A stretch of DNA of 44,924 nt from Microcaldota archaeon (GTDB lineage: Archaea > Micrarchaeota > Micrarchaeia > Micrarchaeales > Micrarchaeaceae). This document shows, piece after piece, positions 7,900 through 29,620 of this stretch. A model generated the notes under the pieces. That model was not told the origin of the DNA. It saw nothing but the letters and a program-made list of their open reading frames with translations, and ran no database searches. Each line of letters starts with the position of its first letter. Within the stretch, counting starts at the first letter, position 1. A program made the position numbers and the translations under genes. The stretch lies in NCBI GenBank assembly GCA_021801905.1, contig JAKABJ010000002.1, forward strand, positions 1 through 44,924. The letters run 5' to 3'.

Positions 7900-8253
7900 T
7901 CATTCTGTTACCCTGATCCTGTACATATTTTCGATTACTTCTGCAGAATCCCTTGCGAAATAATTCATTATCTCGCTCTTGCTCTTCTCAACCAAGTGCA
8001 GCCGCTCTATTCCTTCTTTAGTAAGCTCAAGGCTTATTCCTGGCTCTTCGCGAGTTGCAAAATGCAGGATCTTCTTATCTTTTAGCCTTTTGAGCAAGTA
8101 CCACACAGAGCTTCTTGATATGCTATAGCTATCGCTCATGTATTGAACGAAGCTTGATGCACTGCCAATGCTATCCGACCCGATCTCTATCATTATCAGC
8201 TGCTCTTTTAAAGTAAGCAAAGAGTCAAGGCATAGCCTAACATTAGATTCCAT
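7900..8253 (-). CDS. Winged helix-turn-helix transcriptional regulator
   Basis: SISRSSVWYLLKRLKDKKILHFATREEPGISLELTKEGIERL wHTH pattern; start at MESNVR (8253). Confidence 0.7.
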   Translation of the reverse strand: MESNVRLCLDSLLTLKEQLIMIEIGSDSIGSASSFVQYMSDSYSISRSSVWYLLKRLKDKKILHFATREEPGISLELTKEGIERLHLVEKSKSEIMNYFARDSAEVIENMYRIRVTE

Positions 8254-8481
8254 TTGGACCACACAAAACACCAGAGAAATTTAAAAGAGTTTTATGCATC
8301 CAAACGGAGGTGTGGTGTATTAATATCGCACTTGGCTATAGCGCTTGCGCTGCACATGTCTACAAAGGAGAAGTACCATCTTTGCAGCGTTTGCATTTCC
8401 ATCTACACCATTTCCGTTTATTTACATATCCCAACATGCAAAATAGTTATTTAAGCCTTTTGTATAGTTGGGCTTTGCTAA

Positions 8482-8690
8482 TAAAGTCAAATTCTCGGCA
8501 GATAGAAAATCGAGACTATCAAAAAGTAAAGTTGAGGCTACGAATATAGCTATCAAAATCAAGCTTGCGTTGGATTAAAGAACAAGAATTTTGTTTCACA
8601 GACTACCGAGCTATTGTGTAAGTTGATAGCCTACAACATAAAGGTCTTAATAAATGCGATGCTTGAGTTAAAGGTAGAAACCCAATTTTC
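8482..8690 (+). pseudogene. Frameshifted transposase remnant
   Basis: Frame at 8584: KNFVSQTTELLCKLIAYNIKVLINAMLELKVE, matching TNELLCKLIAYNLTVLISEMYGL of the 162-461 fragment; upstream KSKVEATNIAIKIKLAL lies in another frame. Confidence 0.8.
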
Positions 8691-8691
8691 T

Positions 8692-9306
8692 TCAATGAAC
8701 TTTCTTATCTTGAACATTCCTTCTTAGCATAACCATCGCAATAAATCCCGAATTTGTGATAACCACAGATATTGGATAAAGAACAGTAGTAAGACTAATA
8801 GCTTGCAACGCAGAAATCGAAATCGCAAATCCTAATCCGCTTAGGAAATATGTTATCAGTGTTTCCTCTTTTGGCTTCTTATATGCTTTTCTGTATGTTG
8901 GCACAAACCCTAAGGCATCAACTATTACAGCAAGTATTACGGCGTTTAGTGGGTTGCTTGTAATAGCCCACAGCACAATGCCGATTAATGCTAAAACTAA
9001 AGATACTTTATCAAGCAAAACTATTTCTTTTTCTCCTCTAAATAATGCAAATACGAATATTGAAAGACACGCTAAACCTCCTACTCCGACTAACCATGCA
9101 CCAGCCCCACCTCCCTTCGAGATTTGAGCAAAAAATGCGATAATCTGAACTAATCCCCAGATAAGCCATGAGAATGCATGGGGCTTTGTATTCCCTTTAA
9201 GGATGTCTCTATAGTAAGGGACAAAACCTCCAAGCCCGACAATTACTGCAATTATACCAAATAAAATGTAATAGTCCATCCGAATCGAAATTAGTGAGCG
9301 TATCAT
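8692..9306 (-). CDS. PQ-loop/SemiSWEET-like membrane protein with two related halves
   Basis: GGFVPYYRDILKGNTKPHAFSWLIWGL and LGFVPTYRKAYKKPKEETLITYFLSGLGF repeats, multiple TM helices. Confidence 0.7.
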   Translation of the reverse strand: MIRSLISIRMDYYILFGIIAVIVGLGGFVPYYRDILKGNTKPHAFSWLIWGLVQIIAFFAQISKGGGAGAWLVGVGGLACLSIFVFALFRGEKEIVLLDKVSLVLALIGIVLWAITSNPLNAVILAVIVDALGFVPTYRKAYKKPKEETLITYFLSGLGFAISISALQAISLTTVLYPISVVITNSGFIAMVMLRRNVQDKKVH

Positions 9307-9551
9307 CTATAAATAGCTGTGCAAATTTAATTTCTCGTTTGCTCATAAAGAAACTTTATGAGCAAAACTGTAACCCATATTTGCTAATAAGGTAATTAAA
9401 CTGCTAATTTAGTCCGCTAATAAATTGACCATTTTAGCAAAGCTGTATAGTTGATTTTGTAGAAAGCGTGCAAACTATAGATAAAAATTTATTTTTGATC
9501 CTATAAACCTTATAGAGAGCCCCGTCTTAATAAAAATTAAGCATTTAAAAT

Positions 9552-29595: not shown

Positions 29596-29620
29596 GGCTT
29601 TGTTGAAAAAGTCAAATTTT
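29596..29620 (+). repeat. Solo transposon end related to the left TIR at 8471
   Basis: GGCTTTGTTGAAAAAGTCAAATTTT, 21/25 identical to 8471-8495. Confidence 0.6.

Follow-up and report, generated by a model that had tools for sequence, protein, structure and literature searches.

A passenger-gene element from a Micrarchaeaceae archaeon and an archaeal IS903-like transposon family that appears to insert at the upstream edge of host promoters

A 974-bp element in the genome of a Micrarchaeaceae archaeon very probably represents the passenger type of an archaeal IS903-type branch that inserts at promoter edges, with a precision that would come from the TBP/TFB complex or from promoter DNA for which this complex has a preference. 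The element lies in the 44,924-nucleotide stretch analyzed here (the window). In 48 of 59 archaeal elements bounded by duplications, a core promoter (BRE and TATA box) directly abuts one side of the duplication and points away from the element, and about 11 elements have no clear TATA box at the right place. From these flanks, the archaeal family appears to insert at one precise base just before host promoters; open-access papers yielded no earlier description of a family or target rule of this kind.

The 59 elements were gathered by paired ends and duplications only, with the flanks unseen, from loci in public assemblies that are mostly metagenomic. In the discovery set (n = 27), one flank starts at the duplication with RAAAKSTWTAWATA, an archaeal BRE and TATA box reading outward, and a TATA match of 7/8 or better at offsets 5 to 8 from the duplication was present in 23 of the 27 elements, 20 of them at offset 6, compared with 8.3% of random intergenic sites. 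A motif matrix was built from these 27 elements and fixed before its use on a test set of 32 other archaeal elements, of which 31 came from searches beyond the first set, mostly in other orders and phyla, and one from a congener. With intergenic sites of the same loci as the null, 26 of the 32 test elements exceeded the 95th percentile and 21 exceeded the 99th; among the bacterial relatives, a small sample in which two of the seven look nested, 0 of 7 rose above the null. A register scan placed 21 hits at offset 0 and no more than 2 at any other offset, and a slide of one base removed the signal. Furthermore, a start codon lay 22 to 52 nt past the TATA box in 24 of the 43 elements with enough flank, compared with 19.5% in the null, an excess that real leaderless archaeal promoters would be expected to give.

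The features of the window element are listed in Table 1. The locus had been described in an earlier note as a complete small transposon with terminal inverted repeats and a target-site duplication, a reading that is confirmed, with the ends and the repeat where they had been placed. A scan for paired ends with duplications recovered the window pair with 0 mismatches in both the ends and the repeat, and a shuffled-sequence control yielded 2.85 pairs per pass under far looser criteria (up to five end mismatches and up to one repeat mismatch). A search for further copies of the ends found GGCTTTGCTAATAAAGTC elsewhere in the genome exactly once, on contig C18, and nearly exactly on contig C6; because it recurs there, the window ends are family ends rather than chance matches. 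The target-site duplication GTATAGTTG is exact at 9 of 9 bp. A duplication of 9 to 10 bp had been proposed, and a ten-base direct repeat, TGTATAGTTG, does occur at the element margins (8461-8470 and 9444-9453). The 9 bp are real, and a 10-bp duplication was ruled out by fully symmetrical sister elements, which show 9 bp with GG...CC ends; the limit was set by comparison with about 58 other archaeal elements, and the tenth matching base is due to chance. Across the archaeal set, the 9-bp duplications are exact in 58 of the 59 elements, with one mismatch in the remaining one. The subterminal GCTNATAA repeats, which include a perfect 13-bp inverted pair at 9338-9366, are candidate transposase-binding sites.

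Table 1. Features of the passenger element and of its target site in the window
Feature	Position	Strand	Remarks
Whole element, non-autonomous, cargo-bearing, 974 bp	8471..9444	.	Ends and exact 9-bp duplication
Left terminal inverted repeat GGCTTTGCTAATAAAGTC	8471..8488	+	Same as left end of complete element at G000:C18:15290
Right terminal inverted repeat AGCTTTGCTAAAATGGTC	9427..9444	-	84% identical over 63 bp to C6 element end
Left target-site duplication copy GTATAGTTG	8462..8470	.	
Right target-site duplication copy GTATAGTTG	9445..9453	.	
Subterminal GCTNATAA repeats	9338..9423	.	9341, 9383 and 9416 on +; 9356 on -
Transposase-gene 3' end remnant, 39 codons	8572..8688	+	Encodes GLKNKNFVSQTTELLCKLIAYNIKVLINAMLELKVETQF; model positions 363-401
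Intact cargo gene, 204-aa seven-TM membrane protein of predicted PQ-loop fold	8692..9306	-	
Host core promoter abutting the duplication, AAAAGGCTTAAATAA (BRE-like, then TATA)	8440..8461	-	Points to gene 7900-8271, away from element

Two further family ends were observed in the window. The end GGCTTTGCTAAAAAACTA is accompanied, on the minus strand, by a 3' transposase remnant of 86 codons (138-461), and GGCTTTGTTGAAAAAGTC lies at 29596-29613; for neither the end at 138 nor that at 29596 was a partner end with a duplication found.

Inside the element, the broken transposase piece noticed earlier is genuine, if short: its 39 codons match the end of a 403-position transposase model with an E value of 3e-14. 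It lies tail to tail with the convergent cargo gene, whose open frame likewise upholds the earlier description of an intact membrane gene on the opposite strand. Eight other genomes of the order encode homologues with 43 to 51% identity to the cargo protein, and nine encode more distant homologues, with none in other genomes of the window's genus, and no family ends with duplications were found around the PQ-loop homologues in other genomes. Comparison with Pfam, NCBIfam, and PADLOC gave no family match, defence families included. The structure predicted for the protein (pLDDT 91) most closely matched, among PDB entries, the KDEL receptor and SWEET13, both of PQ-loop fold, at a modest level (TM about 0.55, E values of 0.006 to 0.08). 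Like a mobile insertion cassette, the element has insertion-sequence ends around a passenger gene and lacks a functional transposase. Among matches across the order, truncated transposase copies were mostly 3' ends and N-terminal remnants were rare; this excess is partly a bias, as detection favors C-terminal pieces, although 85-aa N-terminal pieces would still exceed 30 bits.

The same genome holds two sister elements. On contig C18, a 2.6-kb element with the exact duplication CAACCATAC has a left end identical to that of the window element at 18 of 18 positions and encodes an intact transposase of 410 aa, whose domains are SWIM and DDE_Tnp_1. Because it combines this intact transposase with the same 18-bp left end, the C18 copy is a plausible helper, from which the window element may have been mobilized in trans; the earlier view of a non-autonomous, cargo-bearing DDE element is supported, with a plausible trans-acting source. 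On contig C6, a 1.5-kb element with the duplication ATACACAAG/ATGCACAAG carries as cargo a second polyprenyl synthetase gene (another lies on C20), and its transposase gene is reduced to a tail facing the cargo, as in the window element. Related genomes also contain full elements with ends of this kind, which the earlier note had suggested looking for. In addition, a tRNA-like sequence (L008, 7883-7960; anticodon undetermined by ARAGORN) lies inside the complete C18 element, beside the transposase start.

The target promoter could be followed in congeners. On the minus strand, the flank to the left of the window element reads CAACTATAC|AAAAGGCTTAAATAACT, and a TATA box at this promoter position, upstream of the same gene, is conserved in seven congeners. 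The promoter site is empty in four of them (G001, G005, G006, and G007). In G003, the very same base of this promoter holds a distinct element of 1.3 kb, which carries another cargo gene and has an exact duplication of its own, GTACAGGTT; in G004, an element-like end begins at that base, and then the contig stops; and in G008, the site shows GGCTTGGGATAAAA, possibly an eroded element end. An empty site joining the two flanks was sought and not found in the congeners, because the genes that border the window element on the right occupy other places in those genomes; orthology is confined to the left half of the target, the promoter, which is present and empty in the four congeners named. The displaced right-hand genes point to a rearrangement nearby, and the intact duplication indicates that the element arrived after it. 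The leader between the targeted promoter and its gene (8272-8450) is conserved in eight genomes, with no Rfam match and no covariation in a search for structured RNA. In G003, a gene for a ThyX-like 601-aa protein (L170, 2369-4174) lies between the element and a pelota-like gene.

By its transposase and ends, the family is best classed as IS903-like (IS5 family), with an added SWIM domain and cargo. The best NCBIfam model for the transposase, scored on the C18 copy, of which the window element keeps only a remnant, was IS5_2, at 139.9 bits against a cut-off of 140; DDE_Tnp_1 scored well above its cut-off, and the inverted ends are of the GGCTTTGNNNAWWAA type, as in the IS903 group. The element had earlier been taken to fit IS4-like DDE elements, with the promoter-adjacent target rule missed, and the reading of an IS4-like, cargo-bearing element without target preference is one that we now regard as highly improbable even though the C18 transposase contains a Y(2)R(3)E(6)K signature (YREK; Y350, R353, E357, and K364) and 9-bp duplications are known in the IS10 group. 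The second D (D292) is separated from E357 by about 65 residues, the IS4_1 model reached 28.8 bits against a cut-off of 115 (28.8 to 37.4 bits for the curated IS4 model against 115), the ends and 9-bp duplication are of the IS903/ISVa2 type, and the target rule is strong. The IS4 family rule is a D(100-150)E spacing (PMC2266710), and IS4 membership was ruled out by this spacing together with the model scores.

As for how the target is chosen, the proposed course is that a SWIM-domain DDE transposase, probably supplied in trans by the C18 copy, recognizes GGCTTTG ends and places the element such that the end of the 9-bp duplicated target coincides exactly with the start of the host core promoter, BRE and then TATA. 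The promoter would be left intact and pointing outward, and the transposase would be steered by the upstream edge of the promoter-bound TBP/TFB or by DNA that this complex prefers; the window member has lost most of its transposase gene, keeps the 3' tail, and carries the membrane-protein gene. An account without any targeting, in which only intergenic insertions survive in compact genomes whose intergenic DNA is mostly promoter, is highly improbable. About 15% of the studied loci lie outside long open reading frames, so survival must favor intergenic sites, but the null already consists of intergenic sites of the same loci, and survival could not fix the register to one base (one offset accounts for 21 of 32 elements) or explain why several species share one base of one promoter. 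A transposase that itself reads the BRE/TATA sequence or its bendability, with no need of TBP and TFB, is a more serious contender, if still the less likely one: the motif in the flank is sharply defined, and the same data fit an account based purely on sequence. However, the motif is one-sided though the ends are nearly symmetrical, the promoter is found at similar frequency on the two sides of the transposase gene (25 to 19), and the motif is not shared by the bacterial relatives. Transposase dimers alone usually give palindromic target preferences, the bacterial relatives have neither TBP nor TFB, and a TATA center near -27 would make the duplication span roughly -46 to -38, where the TBP/TFB footprint has its upstream edge. 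Because the motif is one-sided, is absent in the bacterial relatives, and has its register at the expected footprint edge, insertion was most likely guided by the TBP/TFB-bound promoter, by analogy with the guidance of Ty3 by TFIIIB.

Relatives were found in Micrarchaeota, Woesearchaeota, Aenigmarchaeota, Nanohaloarchaeota, Altiarchaeota, Diapherotrites, Pacearchaeota, Methanomicrobia, and Thermoplasmata, as well as in several bacterial phyla; among relatives carried on plasmids, those with names are IS903B and ISVa2. In some copies the SWIM domain is weak or escaped detection, yet these copies are still located at promoters. Two acidobacterial copies, L272 and L276, have nine bases in common, ACACTTCGT, next to ends that resemble those of the family (GGCAAAAAAGCC-ACACTTCGT), which suggests nested or tandem elements. 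The cargo of complete members frequently includes genes for restriction-modification and other defence-like functions: among 131 cargo proteins of archaeal elements, scanned against families that overlap, there were 17 matches to N6_Mtase, 14 to Eco57I, 9 to N6_N4_Mtase, 6 to Methylase_S, 4 to MethyltransfD12, 3 to DNA_methylase, and 3 to MamI, with single cases of DruA, AIPR, EcoRI methylase, and NgoPII. The PQ-loop cargo of the window element, unlike that of many complete members, is not defence-like. A survey of archaeal immunity (PMC12988326) contains no passage describing such a vehicle.

Taken as a whole, it is somewhat more probable than otherwise that the family uses the TBP/TFB promoter complex as an address, inserts at its upstream edge, and so moves defence and other genes to safe sites of compact genomes. 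If so, it would be a prokaryotic parallel to Ty3 and TFIIIB. An archaeal transposon family would gain a target rule readable to the single base, which suggests that archaeal transcription factors may serve as integration addresses, and a vehicle would be named that carries restriction-modification and defence-like genes through DPANN and other archaea. The family could also provide natural promoter-aware insertion tools for archaea.

Among known systems, the closest are IS903 and ISVa2 of the IS903 group (IS5 family), which share with the archaeal elements their ends (GGCTTTGTTGAATAAATC and GGCTTTGTTGCTTAAATC), the 9-bp duplication (seen at the ISVa2 flanks), and a related transposase (23 to 29% identity, E values of 1e-9 to 3e-13). 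Members of that group are short single-gene insertion sequences of about 1 kb without cargo, whereas the archaeal copies possess a SWIM zinc finger at the N terminus, extend over 0.6 to 9.3 kb with passenger genes, and abut BRE/TATA promoters. Plant Pack-MULEs are likewise non-autonomous DNA elements with captured genes and 9-bp duplications but depend on a Mutator transposase and have different ends. MIC231 of Bacillus, which is mobilized in trans with IS231 (cited in PMC2266710), resembles the window element in combining insertion-sequence-type ends and a passenger gene with the lack of a transposase; it differs in the CAT... ends of IS231, its duplications of 10 to 12 bp, and its transposase group and host domain, and it has no known promoter rule. 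Ty3 integrates within a span of a few bases that is set by a TBP/B-factor complex, a behavior that has been called harmless targeted integration (PMC8632968), and the archaeal elements share with it insertion at a fixed distance from a core promoter. Ty3, however, is a retroelement of eukaryotic Pol III genes with a 5-bp duplication at -6 to -2, whereas the archaeal family consists of DNA transposons located upstream of BRE/TATA, mostly at protein genes, with a putative contact between transposase and TBP/TFB.
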